Positions 5,645 through 30,210 of a stretch of 64,000 nucleotides of DNA are shown in pieces. The notes beneath the pieces were generated by a model. That model was not told the origin of the DNA and ran no database searches. It saw only the letters and a program-made list of their open reading frames with translations. This stretch comes from Bacteriovoracia bacterium (GTDB lineage Bacteria > Bdellovibrionota > Bacteriovoracia > Bacteriovoracales > Bacteriovoracaceae). The stretch is taken from the NCBI GenBank assembly GCA_030431635.1, contig JAUIIL010000003.1, positions 1 to 64,000 on the forward strand, given 5' to 3'. The number at the start of each line of letters is the position of its first letter. The first letter of the stretch is position 1. The position numbers and the translations under genes are program-made.

Positions 5645-7939
5645 CTAGGCCACCTTTTTTAAATGAGCGCCACGTTTTTGTCCAAATATATTGGTGTCAG
5701 TATTAATGACGATATTAAAACGAGCAGCTTCTTTCTTAATCATTTGTCTATCTTTATCAAAATCCCTTTGACTCATTCTCAAAAGATCAAGTAAGTGATT
5801 GGTTTTTTCAGGATAGTTTTTTAGAACAAAATAGTAAAATTGATATCTAATTTTTTTATCTTCAATAGCACTTAATTGATTAAGGGCCATAAATAAGTCT
5901 TCTCCTTTACTTTCAAAAAGAAATTGAGAGAAAAGTGAAAAAGACTCATGATGCTTTTGTTTTAATAAAGAAATAATTAAAGTTGAGTTAGAGTGATTAA
6001 GACTTTCACTCATTTCATAAACAAAAGGCATGACACTTTTTATTCTTAGCTCTCCCGCTAAGTAGGCCATAGCACTTTTATCTCGTTCATCTTCTGAAGT
6101 AAGAAAAGTTTCAAAAACAGCGATAGCTTGTTGTTGATATTGAGGAGTATGGTACAAAAACATCAAAGCATTACTTCTAACCCTTCTTGGGTAGTCGGAG
6201 GATAGAAAATGAGAGAGCATCAGTAGAAGCTCTTGGTCTTTATTTTTAAGAGCAATCTCCCCTAATACAATAATAGCATTTGCAGTAACTCGGTAATCTG
6301 TTTTATTCTCGTTTATTATTCTCAGTAAATAGGGAACTGCTAAGTGATTAACCCTTTTTGTGATGGCCTTAAAGATATTTCGTCTAATTTGACCAAGGGA
6401 AATCTGCTCAATAACAATAGATTCTAAAGTTGTGACAAGGAAAAGATCAACTTCATGAGATCTAAACTGTAGTAATGCCTCAACAATAGAGAGTTGAATG
6501 TCTTCTCTTTTCTGGTTTTCATAATAGACCATGAGAGGTTTAATGGCCCTTTTATCCTGTATTCTCCCCAGAGATCGAATGATGGCCTTCGCTATAAAAG
6601 GGCGAGGATTACTGTGTAGGAGGGCCAAAAGAGCTGGAACATGAAATTTTGATTCTTTTTCTCCTAGACCATAACAAGATTGAGCAGCCTCATAAATATC
6701 AGTTCTTACAATACTCGCGACTTGATACTCTGTCAGAGAGGTATGAAGTTTTTTTCTAAAATAAAGGCCAAGAAAGCAACAAGCTAAAGAGATAAACCAA
6801 AGAGAAGTTAAAGGGATTAAATGAAAAACAATAGGAGCTGTGATAATGGCCATAACTACATGAAAAATAAAACTCACGTTTTTATGAACGAGATTTCTTA
6901 CATATAAATTAGCTCGAGATGGAATGGCCGACATTAAAATTCTTTTAGATGAATCAACATAAGTATGTTGAATAACTTTTCTTAAAATGCCGGAAGCAAT
7001 AATAGAAGTAGGAGTTGTTAAAAGAATCAATACTAATGAGGAGAACGTTTGAGTTGAAAAAAATGTTTTAAAGCCTTGACTCCATGTTGAGTTTTTAGAC
7101 TTATTAATAATTTGAAACCCTATGACTAAAAGAGTGAGGGCCACTTCAATAAAAGTAATTTGAGAAACTAAAACAGCTGAGCTTTTATCTGAGATACTTC
7201 TTAATTCGTTAATTCCCACAAGAACAGCAAAGGATTGGATGTTTTTCACAATAAGCATAAGGGCCATCATAACAACCATCAGATGAATAAAAGGAAATTC
7301 TTCTTTATCAACTTTTACTTCTTTTTTACTTTCTTGAAGAGGTATTTTGTTCAAAGTGGTAGTATTAGATAAAACAAATCCCATGAAAAAAGGAAATAAA
7401 AGAAAAAAAGAAGAATAGTAAGATTGTTCAAAAAAAGAGTGGAAGAAATAGATCATTACTGCAGAAGAAAGGATTCCTACTTCTTTGGTAAGGGTGAGAT
7501 AAGTTGAAATATTGGGGCTTTTTAAAAGAGAGATGCGAGAAGAAATAGTGTTATTAACAGAGATATCAATTAAGTTTGTTAAGTTGGAAGAAGCAAAAAA
7601 AATGAAACAAGAAAGCATAAAATTAAAATTGGGAGCCACTTGTTCTTTGACTAAAGGATGATAGGCCAGGAGAACAACCGAACCGGCCATACAAAAACTT
7701 AATATGTGAAATAGTCTAGGTGAGTTAAGGCTTATCTTTTCACAAAATTTTAAAAAAGAAAAAGCAATAACTCCTTGAACAAGCATTAAGAGAGGATAGC
7801 TTGATAAGGAAAGTGATTCGATTATCTTCGTAATGGAGACGAGTTTCAAATAATAACTCATTTGTCCCAAAAAAAAGGATAGAAAAAATGAGCTTGTTTG
7901 TGAGTTTTGAATTTCTCTTGAGAGAGTTCTTCTATTCAT
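5645..7939 (-). CDS. MFS-like membrane protein fused to HEAT repeats (764 aa)
   Basis: Residues ~15-400 contain about twelve hydrophobic segments in the pattern of a major-facilitator-type or nucleotide-transporter-like protein (for example LMLVQGVIAFSFLKF, HLMVVMMALMLIV, LVLILLTTPTSIIASGILRK). From about residue 410 to 720 there are helical HEAT repeats, recognisable in FIAKAIIRSLGRIQDKRAIK, ANAIIVLGEIALKNKDQE and RRVRSNALMFLYHTP. This membrane-plus-HEAT layout is known in the Npt1/Npt2-like group of ADP/ATP-translocase relatives, but the substrate cannot be read from the sequence. The start codon and ribosome site sit inside a perfect hairpin (7937-7962). It is downstream of the M16 protease and upstream of the Cys-rich gene. 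Confidence 0.78.
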   Translation of the reverse strand: MNRRTLSREIQNSQTSSFFLSFFLGQMSYYLKLVSITKIIESLSLSSYPLLMLVQGVIAFSFLKFCEKISLNSPRLFHILSFCMAGSVVLLAYHPLVKEQVAPNFNFMLSCFIFFASSNLTNLIDISVNNTISSRISLLKSPNISTYLTLTKEVGILSSAVMIYFFHSFFEQSYYSSFFLLFPFFMGFVLSNTTTLNKIPLQESKKEVKVDKEEFPFIHLMVVMMALMLIVKNIQSFAVLVGINELRSISDKSSAVLVSQITFIEVALTLLVIGFQIINKSKNSTWSQGFKTFFSTQTFSSLVLILLTTPTSIIASGILRKVIQHTYVDSSKRILMSAIPSRANLYVRNLVHKNVSFIFHVVMAIITAPIVFHLIPLTSLWFISLACCFLGLYFRKKLHTSLTEYQVASIVRTDIYEAAQSCYGLGEKESKFHVPALLALLHSNPRPFIAKAIIRSLGRIQDKRAIKPLMVYYENQKREDIQLSIVEALLQFRSHEVDLFLVTTLESIVIEQISLGQIRRNIFKAITKRVNHLAVPYLLRIINENKTDYRVTANAIIVLGEIALKNKDQELLLMLSHFLSSDYPRRVRSNALMFLYHTPQYQQQAIAVFETFLTSEDERDKSAMAYLAGELRIKSVMPFVYEMSESLNHSNSTLIISLLKQKHHESFSLFSQFLFESKGEDLFMALNQLSAIEDKKIRYQFYYFVLKNYPEKTNHLLDLLRMSQRDFDKDRQMIKKEAARFNIVINTDTNIFGQKRGAHLKKVA

Positions 7940-7983: not shown

Positions 7984-10785
7984 TTATTTGAAAGTTGGAA
8001 ACTGGTTCTTAACTTCTTGAAAGTTGGTTGTAGTTTTAAGGTTATTCCCGACTGAAATACTCACTTCGGTAGGAGTTTGAATGATTTTTTCAATTACAGT
8101 TTTTTTGAAGTCCTCTTTTTTAACTTTGAGAACTTGTGCAGCAAATTTTTCTTTATAATCAAAGTCTCCATTTAAAATAAAAGCTTGGGTTTGAAGCCAA
8201 ATCATCCTCTCTTTCATACTCCTAACGGGTTGAGAAATTTGAGAGTGAATCACTTTTTTAATATGTTCAAATTTTTCTTCGTTTGTATTATCAATAAGCT
8301 TAGGAACTTCTGTTTGGATCCATGCCAGAGCTCTTTTTCTTAACTCTTTTGAAGGGTATTTTGATGACTGTATTAAAAAGTCATACCCATAGGATTTAGA
8401 AAGATAGTTATAACCACTGTGAACAATATATCCGAGTTGCTGGTTTGTTCTCATCTGAGAGTAAAACTCACTGTCAATTATGGCCGAGAGAACTCTTAAG
8501 TAACTATTAAGCACAATTTCTCTTTCCCCTAATTGAAAATGTCCATACCATGCGTTGTTATTTCCCTTGCTAAAAAAGTTAAATTCATGCAGACCAGGTG
8601 AAAAATTAACATCTTCATCATTGATAAAATTCTCTTTCGCAAGAACCTTGGCCCCGAGAGTTTGATGTATATTTTTTATGATAGGTTTAATTTCTTTAGA
8701 GTTCAAATTTCCATAAGTTAAACCCTCTATTGAAATCTCTTGGAAAACATCATTAGCGAACTGAAAAACATCTTCTTTTTTAACTTTTGAAAGAGAGCTC
8801 TTTAACTCTGAGTTTGTAAAAGAATGTTTATTAATAAGATATTTTAGCCAGTAGCCAGCTTGATGATAGGCAGGAGCTAACTCAAAATTATCAAACTCTT
8901 TTTTCATTTCAGCCAGATAAGTTTCAAATCTTTCTTGTGAAAGCTCTATCGTTTTTAGTTTTTTAATGAGATCTTCTAATAAGAGAGGTGATTTATCCGA
9001 GAATCCACTAATTTGAATTTCAATCCCTCTTGAAAAAGAAGAAACTTGAAACTTCAGTCCAGCTATATCGGCCATGTATTTCCATTCATTAAGTGTATCC
9101 GCAAGAGCTGAGAGATAAAGAGACATGATGATTTGATAATTAGGTGTTAAGTATTTTTTATGAATTAAAAAACGCAAATTCGTAATAGCGTTAGGATAGA
9201 GGAGTTGGTCATTTTGTTGGAAATAAAAAAGTCCTAACTCGTTATCTAAAATTTTCTTTGGGTATTTAGACTCTTCATCTTGTTTTAGTGAGAGATCTTC
9301 AGGAATGTAACTATTAGGCTTGGGAAGAGCAAGTGCCAATTTTTTAACTTCTAACCATTTTTCTTCTATTTCTTTTTTTACTTCTTCAACAGAGTAGTTA
9401 ATTTGGTAATACTGTTCTTTTTGGTCCGTTTGAGCATGAGGGTGTTGAAGGTAAACAGTAAGGTTTTCAGGTTTAAGAGAGTTTAAAAATTCTAAGTATT
9501 CTTTTTGTGGTTTTTGATACAGAAGTGATGCTCTTTTTTCTATATCAACATAAGGATATTCAAATAAATAATCTGCTGTTCCTGATACATCAGATAAGCT
9601 AACCTCTTTACTTCCATAAACATATTCAAGTCTTTGCGTAATATCGAGTTCATTGTAGATATAGTCCTTAAGTGAGCTTTCTTTTAATAAATGAATGTAA
9701 TTGAAAGTCATATTGATAACTTTATCGATATTTTTAAGACCCTTGTCAGTGAGAGCAATATTAATTCCAAAAGTATTTTGAAATGAAGATTCATGGGCAC
9801 CGGCTGAAAGAGAGAAGGCCAAGTTTTCTTCTTTTAATAAAGATAAAAGAGAGCCTTCTGCTTCATGTCCAATAAGGTGTCCGATGATAAAAAGAGGTTT
9901 AGATTTCCAATATTTCTCGTTTTGGGCAGGTACAGAGAAATCCAAGGCCAATCTTTGCATTTGAGTTTGAGATTGGATTTGAACGACTCTGGCTTTTTCA
10001 TAAGGTTTAACCATCTCAAATTGAGGCTCTTTTAACTTTCTATTTTCAATGGGCAAAAAATATTCTTTCGCTATTTTTTCGAGTTCGGCCAATGGTAGAG
10101 GGCTGTAGATAACAAGATTCATAAGATTGGAAGAGTAATGCCCTTGATAAAACTTAATAACATCTTCTTGTGTAATCTCTTTAAGAGTTTCGTTGTTACC
10201 AGTTGAAAACTTTCTAACTAAATGATCTTTAGGAAGCATGAGTTTTTTTATTCGATAATACCTTCTACCATCATCAAGTAAATTTTTTTGATGTTCAGAA
10301 TTAACCGCATTCTTCTCTCTTTTTAAATACTCTTTATCAAAATTTGGAGAAATAAAAAACTGAGAGAAGCGATCAATCGCGGCAACTAAATGCTCGTGAG
10401 GAATTTCAAAGTGATAGTTGGTATTCTCTGTCGCTGTGTAAGCATTAAAACTACCTTGATGAGAAGTAAAAAACTCTTGATAATCTCCTACTTGAGGGTA
10501 TTTTTTTGTTCCTAAAAAGAGCATGTGTTCAAGAAAGTGGGCCATTCCTTCCTGACCGACGGGGTCAGAGGCACTTCCCACCTTTACACTTAAAGAGACC
10601 ATAGATTTTTTAATATTAGAAGTTGATACTAAAAGAACTTTGAGTCCATTTTCTAACTCATAAAACTTCTTTTTTTCAGTTTCATTAAACTTTTTTAAAT
10701 TCTCTACTTTTTGAGTTAGAACATCTTGATGATTATTTTTGTTACATGAAATAAATAAAAAGCAGCACAAAATTAAGGCCTTCAT
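7984..10785 (-). CDS. M16 (insulinase/pitrilysin) family zinc protease, lipoprotein (933 aa)
   Basis: The signal has a lipobox (LFISC, Cys14), so the protein is probably lipid-anchored in the periplasm. The inverted zinc motif HFLEH (H83-H87) is present in the family block GMAHFLEHMLFLGTKKYP. The distal Glu ligand lies in REKNAVNSEHQKN. NAYTATENTNYHFEI is the usual strand/helix after the active site. The length and four-domain layout fit the single-chain insulinase/pitrilysin type rather than the shorter M16B type. A second substrate-binding region is near the C-terminus (NQQLGYIVHSGY, matching the family's RtxeQLGY). It probably degrades peptides in the envelope. Confidence 0.92.
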   Translation of the reverse strand: MKALILCCFLFISCNKNNHQDVLTQKVENLKKFNETEKKKFYELENGLKVLLVSTSNIKKSMVSLSVKVGSASDPVGQEGMAHFLEHMLFLGTKKYPQVGDYQEFFTSHQGSFNAYTATENTNYHFEIPHEHLVAAIDRFSQFFISPNFDKEYLKREKNAVNSEHQKNLLDDGRRYYRIKKLMLPKDHLVRKFSTGNNETLKEITQEDVIKFYQGHYSSNLMNLVIYSPLPLAELEKIAKEYFLPIENRKLKEPQFEMVKPYEKARVVQIQSQTQMQRLALDFSVPAQNEKYWKSKPLFIIGHLIGHEAEGSLLSLLKEENLAFSLSAGAHESSFQNTFGINIALTDKGLKNIDKVINMTFNYIHLLKESSLKDYIYNELDITQRLEYVYGSKEVSLSDVSGTADYLFEYPYVDIEKRASLLYQKPQKEYLEFLNSLKPENLTVYLQHPHAQTDQKEQYYQINYSVEEVKKEIEEKWLEVKKLALALPKPNSYIPEDLSLKQDEESKYPKKILDNELGLFYFQQNDQLLYPNAITNLRFLIHKKYLTPNYQIIMSLYLSALADTLNEWKYMADIAGLKFQVSSFSRGIEIQISGFSDKSPLLLEDLIKKLKTIELSQERFETYLAEMKKEFDNFELAPAYHQAGYWLKYLINKHSFTNSELKSSLSKVKKEDVFQFANDVFQEISIEGLTYGNLNSKEIKPIIKNIHQTLGAKVLAKENFINDEDVNFSPGLHEFNFFSKGNNNAWYGHFQLGEREIVLNSYLRVLSAIIDSEFYSQMRTNQQLGYIVHSGYNYLSKSYGYDFLIQSSKYPSKELRKRALAWIQTEVPKLIDNTNEEKFEHIKKVIHSQISQPVRSMKERMIWLQTQAFILNGDFDYKEKFAAQVLKVKKEDFKKTVIEKIIQTPTEVSISVGNNLKTTTNFQEVKNQFPTFK

Positions 10786-28934: not shown

Positions 28935-28952
28935 AATGGGATGGCTGACGGG
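28935..28952. repeat. Distal att-like copy of the tRNA-His 3' end
   Basis: AATGGG[A]TGGCTGACGGG, differing from the tRNA copy by a single base (A here, G at 30138). It is located in the gap after the GFA gene, far from any tRNA structure. Confidence 0.65.
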
Positions 28953-29125
28953 TAGATCTTAAGTTCTTGTTTTTCTTAACATCTGGATTTGGAACTAGAG
29001 GCCTTGCTAACTTATTGAATTTACCAAGTCCTTATTTAGTATCAATACTTTATGAGAGCTCTAATATGATATTCTCTAATGGTAATCTTTATTTTATACG
29101 ATAAAGGTAGTGTATATACAATACT

Positions 29126-29134
29126 TGTGATAAT
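29126..29134 (+). promoter_or_regulatory. Possible extended -10 promoter of the cassette
   Basis: TGTGATAAT reads as an extended -10 element (TGn followed by GATAAT) eight bases before the ATG at 29143. If used, transcription would start at or almost at the start codon (near-leaderless), which fits the lack of a clear ribosome site. Confidence 0.35.
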
Positions 29135-29142
29135 ATAAAGAA

Positions 29143-29637
29143 ATGAAAGAGATACTAGAAAAAATCTTCAAACAGCTAGATAAGGAGATAATCAAACGAG
29201 AAAGTGAAGCTCGAGAACAAGGTTTTAACTTTAGGGCAGAAACTCAGATAAAACTTTTGGGGCAAATGAGCCTGCTTGTTAATGAAAGTATTACAACATT
29301 AATCGAGCTGAATGCCACTAGAGATGTTGATAGTTACATTCAATCTGAGTATTGGGTCGAAAAGAAGTTTGAGAGCTTGCTTAAAAAAGAAGGACTACTT
29401 TTAGACAAAGATAGGAACTTAATTTGGATGCCAGAAGAAACAATCTTTAAAACTTTTTTTACAGGTAAATACTTAACTGTACTTATCCCTGAACCTATTT
29501 ACTGTTTAGCAAGCAAGGCAATTAAAGCAAAAGAAAAAAATAAACAACTGATCATTTTTGCATTACTTGAATATGGGGATAAACTGGAAAATCTTATCAA
29601 AAAGTACAATGGGGAACTTGAGTTTTTTTATGAATAA
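29143..29637 (+). CDS. Putative nucleotidyltransferase-like protein of the tRNA-His cassette (164 aa)
   Basis: No signal peptide; N-terminal helix (MKEILEKIFKQLDKEIIKRE). The core LLGQMSLLVNES followed by ATRDVDSYI resembles the start of the DUF6036/AbiEii-type nucleotidyltransferase fold, where a Gly-Gly and a TRDxD motif hold the metal-binding Asp. Here the Gly-Gly is altered (LLGQMS). Later, VLIPEPIYCLASKAIKAKEK resembles the region after the active site (a PEYLLAxKLxAxR-like helix). Weak but consistent. The gene overlaps the next by 8 bases, so they are translationally coupled. It could be the toxin (or an antitoxin NTase) of a two-gene module. Fold inferred from motifs only. Confidence 0.55.
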   Translation: MKEILEKIFKQLDKEIIKRESEAREQGFNFRAETQIKLLGQMSLLVNESITTLIELNATRDVDSYIQSEYWVEKKFESLLKKEGLLLDKDRNLIWMPEETIFKTFFTGKYLTVLIPEPIYCLASKAIKAKEKNKQLIIFALLEYGDKLENLIKKYNGELEFFYE

Positions 29638-30145
29638 AGAAAGACTTAGAAAAAAGATTGAAGCGTTGGAGAAATTCAAACAAGACCCTCGTTATCAACA
29701 AGTGATGGGATTTTTAATCCATAAGGGGCTCCTTGTCGCTAATAGAGAATATGGTTTTGAGAACTACTTAAATATCAAAGATGCTTTATGGGCAGCTAAG
29801 ATAGAAGCAAGAATTATTGAAGTTCTCCCTGCTGCTATATTGCATTTCCCAAAAAGTATTGTAGACCCAGAGAGTATTCCAAAGAAACTCCAAGTGGTCT
29901 TAGAGAATATTAAGGATGGAAGTAAAGAGGGAGAAGACTATAAAGGGCTTAAGTACGCAGATATGAGAAAGTGGGCTGACATTCCTTTAAAAGATAAAAG
30001 AACAAAACCAATTAGTAGAAAGAAGAGACAAAATAATTTCCGATTTAGACCAGAAGTTTTAGCGAAACTAGAAGAGTATTCGAAGAATAGAGGATTAACA
30101 AAGACAGAAGCCTTAGAAGATCTTGTTATGAAATGGGGTGGCTGA
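29630..30145 (+). CDS. Cassette partner with C-terminal ribbon-helix-helix-like domain (171 aa)
   Basis: I take the ATG at 29630, which overlaps the upstream stop; an earlier frame start at 29558 lies wholly inside the upstream gene. Residues ~1-100 are helical (MNKERLRKKIEALEKF ... AKIEARIIEVLPAAILHFPK) and of unknown family. The last ~35 residues (FRFRPEVLAKLEEYSKNRGL then TKTEALEDLVMKW) look like a CopG/Arc-type ribbon-helix-helix, as in antitoxins. The final codons and the TGA stop lie inside the att core and the tRNA-His acceptor arm. An antitoxin/DNA-binding role is inferred from the domain and the coupling to the upstream gene. Confidence 0.6.
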   Translation: MNKERLRKKIEALEKFKQDPRYQQVMGFLIHKGLLVANREYGFENYLNIKDALWAAKIEARIIEVLPAAILHFPKSIVDPESIPKKLQVVLENIKDGSKEGEDYKGLKYADMRKWADIPLKDKRTKPISRKKRQNNFRFRPEVLAKLEEYSKNRGLTKTEALEDLVMKWGG

Positions 30146-30149
30146 CGGG
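30132..30149. repeat. tRNA-proximal att-like copy
   Basis: Overlaps the 3' end of tRNA-His and the last codons of the RHH-like gene; matches 28935-28952 at 17 of 18 bases. Confidence 0.65.
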
Positions 30150-30210
30150 GCTCGAACCCGCGACAACTTGAACCACAATCAAGTGCTCTACCAACTGAAC
30201 TACAGCCACC
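30134..30210 (-). tRNA. tRNA-His (GUG)
   Basis: Minus strand cloverleaf with acceptor GTGGCTG / CAGCCAC, the extra G at position -1 (30210) paired with discriminator C (30137), D arm TTCAGTTGGTAGAGC, anticodon loop TTGTGGT (anticodon GUG), T arm GCGGGTTCGAGCCCCG and encoded CCA (30134-30136). The -1 G confirms His identity. Its 3' 12 bases overlap the coding end of the opposite-strand cassette gene. Confidence 0.96.

Follow-up and report, generated by a model that had tools for sequence, protein, structure and literature searches.

The window is the whole stretch of 64,000 nucleotides analysed in this work, and its host is a Halobacteriovorax-like bacterium which, judged by its sequence relatives, belongs to the Halobacteriovorax/Bacteriovorax group. 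An intact tRNA-His gene with a GTG anticodon is located on the minus strand, and a direct repeat of 18 bp, AATGGGRTGGCTGACGGG, is present at both ends of a short interval that reaches into this gene (Table 1). The right copy reads AATGGGGTGGCTGACGGG on the plus strand and the left copy differs from it by one mismatch, so 17 of the 18 positions are identical at a spacing of 1197 bp. An earlier note on this DNA had described such a repeat, with one copy forming the tRNA-His 3' end and just two overlapping genes in between, and these observations were confirmed: it is the right copy that forms the tRNA end, and the two genes, here called A and B, overlap by 8 bp. The C-terminal codons of gene B and its stop (KWGG*) are encoded by the tRNA-His-derived right repeat. 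No integrase or relaxase genes of the IME/ICE type lie between the repeats, where A and B are the only genes, and neither A nor B had a recombinase match in Pfam, NCBIfam, PADLOC and other family searches.

Table 1. Features of the A/B interval and the adjoining tRNA-His gene (window positions).
Feature	Position	Strand	Basis
Left direct repeat, putative attR; displaced tRNA-His 3' end	28935–28952		17/18 identical to 30132–30149, the sole other copy in the genome
Non-coding left part; promoter/operator region of A	28953–29142		Repeat-to-A distance resembles that of other repeat-flanked units
Palindrome TGTATATACA, putative operator for B	29111–29120		GTATWDAC 5' of A in 20/27 loci
Gene A, 164 aa; predicted nucleotidyltransferase fold, putative toxin	29143–29637	+	AF2, Foldseek, conservation
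Gene B, 171 aa; helical N-terminal domain and C-terminal ribbon-helix-helix, putative antitoxin/repressor	29630–30145	+	Stop within the tRNA-His sequence
Right direct repeat, putative attL; tRNA-His 3' end plus 2 bp past the encoded CCA	30132–30149		
tRNA-His (GTG), target gene, intact	30134–30209	−	

A 17-bp probe taken from the repeat and searched with up to three mismatches had only two sites within the window, where shuffled sequences gave an expectation of 0.02. The 15-bp core occurs twice in the entire 3.32-Mb genome, both times at the A/B interval, so the repeat is not one that is found at many unrelated positions, in line with the tiny integrative element proposed in the earlier note. 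The base composition of the whole interval from 28935 to 30149 is unremarkable (32.7% vs 35.4%), and a foreign origin on the grounds of odd base composition is unsupported.

The tRNA-His gene was recognisable in 108 of the 129 genomes searched. On its 5' side, an order of an outer-membrane-type gene, a HAD phosphatase and a pseudouridine synthase is broadly conserved in the family, and on its 3' side the genes differ among the relatives read. A/B was absent 3' of tRNA-His in all 20 of these relatives; the pair is therefore not something that close relatives all carry at this place, which again agrees with an integrative element. No empty site for the window locus was found among the same 20 genomes, none of which is congeneric and whose 3' flanks are unrelated. 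In the few A/B-bearing relatives within the order, A/B and tRNA-His are on separate contigs, and one of these genomes (G113) had no tRNA-His match. Large serine recombinase genes in two relatives (L089 and L098) have their last codons inside the tRNA-His 3' end, and the L098 frame ends in KWGG*, exactly like B in the window. In genome G028, the tRNA-His end recurs as an exact match of 25 bp at a distance of 6.1 kb, and the DNA between the two copies encodes a tyrosine integrase; the att core of G028 falls on the same tRNA segment as the window repeat. Given these serine recombinase genes and the G028 integrase element, tRNA-His serves as an insertion site in the family of the window genome. 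Direct repeats of up to 87 bp around approximately 1 kb also appeared near tRNA-His in relatives as matches of the control scan described below (L086 at about 6456 and 7514, and L099). The window genome has nine tyrosine recombinase matches, three of which are 37–40% identical to the G028 integrase. No helper integrase with its own element at tRNA-His could be named in this genome, as the four neighbourhoods examined contained neither a tRNA nor a clear copy of the core (matches with four mismatches only).

Relatives of the pair were looked for more widely. A profile search detected A in 33 of 369 Bdellovibrionota genomes, distributed over 29 of 182 genera; within the order, A is present in five and B in six of 129 genomes. 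In a separate collection, an alignment search with A gave 14 loci, nearly all of them Bdellovibrionota-like, one of which is from the same family as the window genome (Halobacteriovorax marinus 36_234_T64). B was next to A, overlapping or adjacent, in the loci examined. Genome collections scanned with the B protein alone gave no match. Searches of phages, plasmids and viral contigs yielded no relatives of A and hence pointed to no carrier of the phage or plasmid type. The literature consulted describes no two-gene unit of the A/B kind and no such elements in Bdellovibrio-like bacteria.

In four other lineages, A and B were likewise found alone between direct repeats, at a spacing of 1.2–1.3 kb. 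At L110 the repeat is 125 bp (spacing 1264 bp) and duplicates the 3' end of a prephenate-type gene that is itself intact (561 aa), and at L113 (equivalent to L132 of G175) an exact repeat of 42 bp (spacing 1234 bp), like the window repeat, overlaps the 3' end of B. At L144 (G295) the pair is enclosed by a duplicated tRNA-Ala(CGC), whose copies show one difference over 74 bp (spacing 1292 bp), and at L148 (G291) the repeat is 164 bp (spacing 1249 bp) and duplicates the 5'-terminal part of an acyl-CoA dehydrogenase-type gene. The window repeat, with 18 bp and one mismatch, is the shortest among the repeat-flanked A/B units. A repeat score of at least 15 was reached by 7 of 32 A/B loci and by 10 of 3000 random 1-kb intervals (0.33%); the corresponding Fisher p of 1.3e-10 is a guide only, since the control intervals were taken from the window and the relative loci and their matches were clustered. 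The remaining 25 of the 32 loci had no strong flanking repeat inside 300 bp. Among the repeat-flanked cases the orientation of A/B relative to the target gene varies, which is at odds with a single dedicated att system. A shared att motif at the A/B ends was unsupported when the five units were compared by eye.

The best indications of a movement of A/B as a unit come from two sets of related genomes, and concern copies other than that of the window. The insertion site occupied in G291 is uninterrupted and present as a single copy in its congener G292 and in the family member G288. G290, a further congener of G291, carries its own A/B on another contig with 80% nucleotide identity. In the same genome, a different gene of 358 aa (L177, 1330–2406) fills the intergenic site that A/B occupies in G291. 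The congeners G282 and G287 have in common an A/B block of 1,114 bp, 96.8% identical, with unrelated flanks on both sides. An extra segment of 84 bp is located upstream of the block in one of them and downstream in the other, an arrangement such as a circle opened at different points would give. A Phd/Doc-like pair (L192, 329–966) adjoins the relocated block in G287. Compared at the sequence level, these cases make the mobility of the A/B family well supported. Likewise, the claim that this is a tiny element in need of an integrase from outside now has its support mainly in the relatives, namely the four repeat-flanked lineages, the empty site and the relocated block.

The pair was also found in company with other mobile systems. 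In G035 (L020) a tyrosine integrase adjoining tRNA-Leu is close to the pair, and at L105 the neighbours of the pair are an excisionase-like gene and a tyrosine integrase. At the latter locus, a second copy of a 72-bp piece of the tyrosine integrase gene is located upstream of A, across the pair from the integrase (5778–5849 and 7991–8062, 94% identical). At L103 (5453–5610), which belongs to a MAG with the label Dadabacteria, the DNA just 5' of A/B contains pieces of the tRNA-Leu 3' end, both repeated and inverted. In G030, A/B is between repeats near RelE/HigA-like genes, and in G043 it is one cassette in a long array bounded by 140-bp repeats. This region of G043 (C1, 1360578–1422257; L016/L184–L187; Halobacteriovorax marinus 36_234_T64) contains about 30 matches to the repeat of about 140 bp, all in one orientation over about 60 kb, with cassettes of very roughly 1–4 kb between them, and looks like a large cassette array. 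The G043 repeat had no Rfam match, no unusual single-strand fold, and no attC-like fold or known core. As judged from these neighbourhoods, A/B rides in several mobile systems. Taken together, the several carriers, the varying orientation and the varying repeat length are better explained by a hitchhiker that helpers move than by a unit equipped with a recombinase of its own.

Gene A had no match in Pfam, NCBIfam or PADLOC, none of 15 A proteins matched DUF1814/AbiEii in Pfam or NCBIfam, and sequence searches of the PDB gave nothing useful. The AF2 model of A is a confident one, with a pLDDT of 94.5, and its best Foldseek matches are mostly nucleotidyltransferases, which are individually weak (E at least 0.2, best 0.22) and include terminal uridylyltransferases, the MenT1 toxin (8an4), CdnG and alarmone synthetases. 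From this model a nucleotidyltransferase fold is predicted for A. Conservation across 15 sequences is complete at G40-Q41, T59, D61, D63, D88, S124-K125 and K132-N133, giving the conserved pattern GQ...TxDxD...SK...KN. Toxins of the MenT kind act on tRNAs by modification of their acceptor ends. MenT1 co-ordinates Mg through an aspartate and contacts the NTP through a lysine (PMC11375011); by analogy, D61/D63 and K125 of A may be equivalent to these residues. The C-terminus of B is RHH-like, as indicated by a PHROG repressor match (E 1e-4), Pfam RHH_1 matches in two members and CopG/Arc folds. A GTATWDAC palindrome is located shortly 5' of A in 20 of 27 loci, compared with a mean of 0.67 and a maximum of 4 in shuffled sequences. 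Furthermore, A is truncated next to an open B in seven loci from seven genera (L017, L140, L148, L151, L152, L153 and L154), some of which may be assembly errors in metagenome genomes, and no locus with a broken B and an intact A was found in the search, which was made with A. This seven-to-none ratio looks like the pattern of a toxin that is lost while its antitoxin is kept. The small two-gene operon, the RHH partner and the operator-like palindrome resemble a type II toxin-antitoxin layout, and A-B is most likely a maintenance pair of the toxin-antitoxin type. The guess of the earlier note that the genes could be an addiction unit was thus a reasonable one, for which the nucleotidyltransferase fold, the RHH domain, the operator-like palindrome and the one-sided decay of A speak indirectly.

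It is somewhat unlikely that the unit is mobile and non-addictive, with A-B as a regulated enzyme or a phage-defence pair instead of a toxin-antitoxin. The lack of a family match in Pfam, NCBIfam and PADLOC would be compatible with this, and nucleotidyltransferase folds can also act as antitoxins, as described for MntA of HEPN/MNT (PMC7641770). However, the loss of A next to an intact B, the RHH partner and the conserved palindrome 5' of A are typical traits of toxin-antitoxin operons. An unlikely reading is that the interval is a CIME remnant, in which a larger integrase-bearing island at tRNA-His lost its integrase and other genes and A-B is the surviving cargo. CIMEs are by definition decayed elements that retain attL and attR (PMC5704250), and the tyrosine integrases near A/B in G035 and at L105 speak for this reading. 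Repeated independent deletion does not predict the same minimal content with a spacing of 1.2–1.3 kb in independent lineages, nor the sharp ends of the 1.1-kb block common to G282 and G287.

We regard as very unlikely a coincidence between resident genes near tRNA-His and an unrelated fragment of a tRNA 3' end upstream of them. Such fragments do arise by duplication, the repeat is only 18 bp, and the relatives read contain no empty site for the window locus, but the chance expectation in the window, the uniqueness of the repeat in the genome, the low rate in the control intervals and the absence of A/B from tRNA-His in the relatives read all argue against it. The least probable reading is that of a self-mobile unit, a toxin-antitoxin operon of a kind not described before that would spread by itself without a recognisable recombinase, whose proteins or ends would drive the excision of a circle of about 1.2 kb and an insertion that duplicates 18–164 bp of the target. 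The absence of a recombinase from every repeat-flanked unit, the constant content and size, the different sites in congeners and the 84-bp segment that changes sides of the block between them, which could result from a circular intermediate, are consistent with it. Against this, the predicted fold of A is nucleotidyltransferase-like and not recombinase-like, the repeats vary in sequence, length and orientation, and each duplication derives from the local target gene, as in helper-driven or homologous insertion.

We hypothesize that the window contains an integrase-less mini-unit of two genes at tRNA-His, which is moved in trans and probably is an addictive pair of the toxin-antitoxin type; on balance, we consider this reading rather likely to be right. 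The A-B operon of about 1.2 kb would have been inserted at the tRNA-His 3' end, with the 18-bp piece of the tRNA duplicated at the far end. Excision and insertion would be performed in trans by a tyrosine integrase with its att core in the tRNA-His 3' end, and the predicted circle of 1,197 bp would join the B end through AATGGGRTGGCTGACGGG to TAGATCTTAAG. A would act as the toxin and B would neutralise it, and B may also repress the A-B operon by binding with its RHH end at the TGTATATACA palindrome. Addiction would explain both the persistence of so small a unit and its ride in several mobile contexts. If this is right, an uncharacterised nucleotidyltransferase-type toxin-antitoxin family that is absent from Pfam, NCBIfam and PADLOC is among the smallest repeat-bounded mobile units, which bears on the spread of toxin-antitoxins between genomes that is usually ascribed only to larger carriers. 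The tRNA-His 3' end would also stand out as a hotspot of repeated insertion among the predatory bacteria of this family. The empty site of G292 and G288 and the relocated block of G282 and G287 are natural before/after pairs, in which the helper, the circle and addiction are directly testable.

The unit proposed here resembles CIMEs and hitcher genetic elements in that its att-like repeats are located at the 3' end of a tRNA gene, integrase and transfer genes are missing and, probably, helpers are required (PMC5704250; PMC11389934). The attL/attR-like repeats at a used target and the lack of integrase and conjugation genes between them are structural features of a CIME. Unlike CIMEs, which are decayed islands, the same two-gene unit of about 1.2 kb recurs across lineages and sites, as if it were itself the moving unit, and no parental ICE or IME was found at tRNA-His. 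Integration into tRNA genes is also a feature of the tycheposons and similar tRNA-linked satellites of marine bacteria, which have been described in other phyla and whose small members depend on helpers. Tycheposons have been named among satellites (PMC11389934). The A/B unit differs from them in having two genes only, with no tyrosine recombinase, packaging or replication genes. It is similar to integron-type gene cassettes (CALIN) in that A/B is between repeats in cassette-like arrays in G043 and G030, but the G043 repeat showed no attC-like fold or known core and the A/B of the window is not in an array. With MenAT/AbiE it has in common a two-gene operon, a predicted nucleotidyltransferase fold for A with the match to MenT1 (8an4), and a DNA-binding partner. 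It differs from them in that A has no DUF1814/AbiEii match, the putative toxin gene comes first, and B combines an RHH with its own N-terminal domain. The toxin motif of MenAT/AbiE is GG/GS, and A has GQ instead. The A/B unit is not assigned to MenAT/AbiE, since A does not match the sequence family by which these are defined. Thus, the A/B unit is best described as an integrase-less, repeat-bounded hitchhiker of two genes with a candidate for an uncharacterised nucleotidyltransferase-type toxin-antitoxin, and with the structural features of a CIME.
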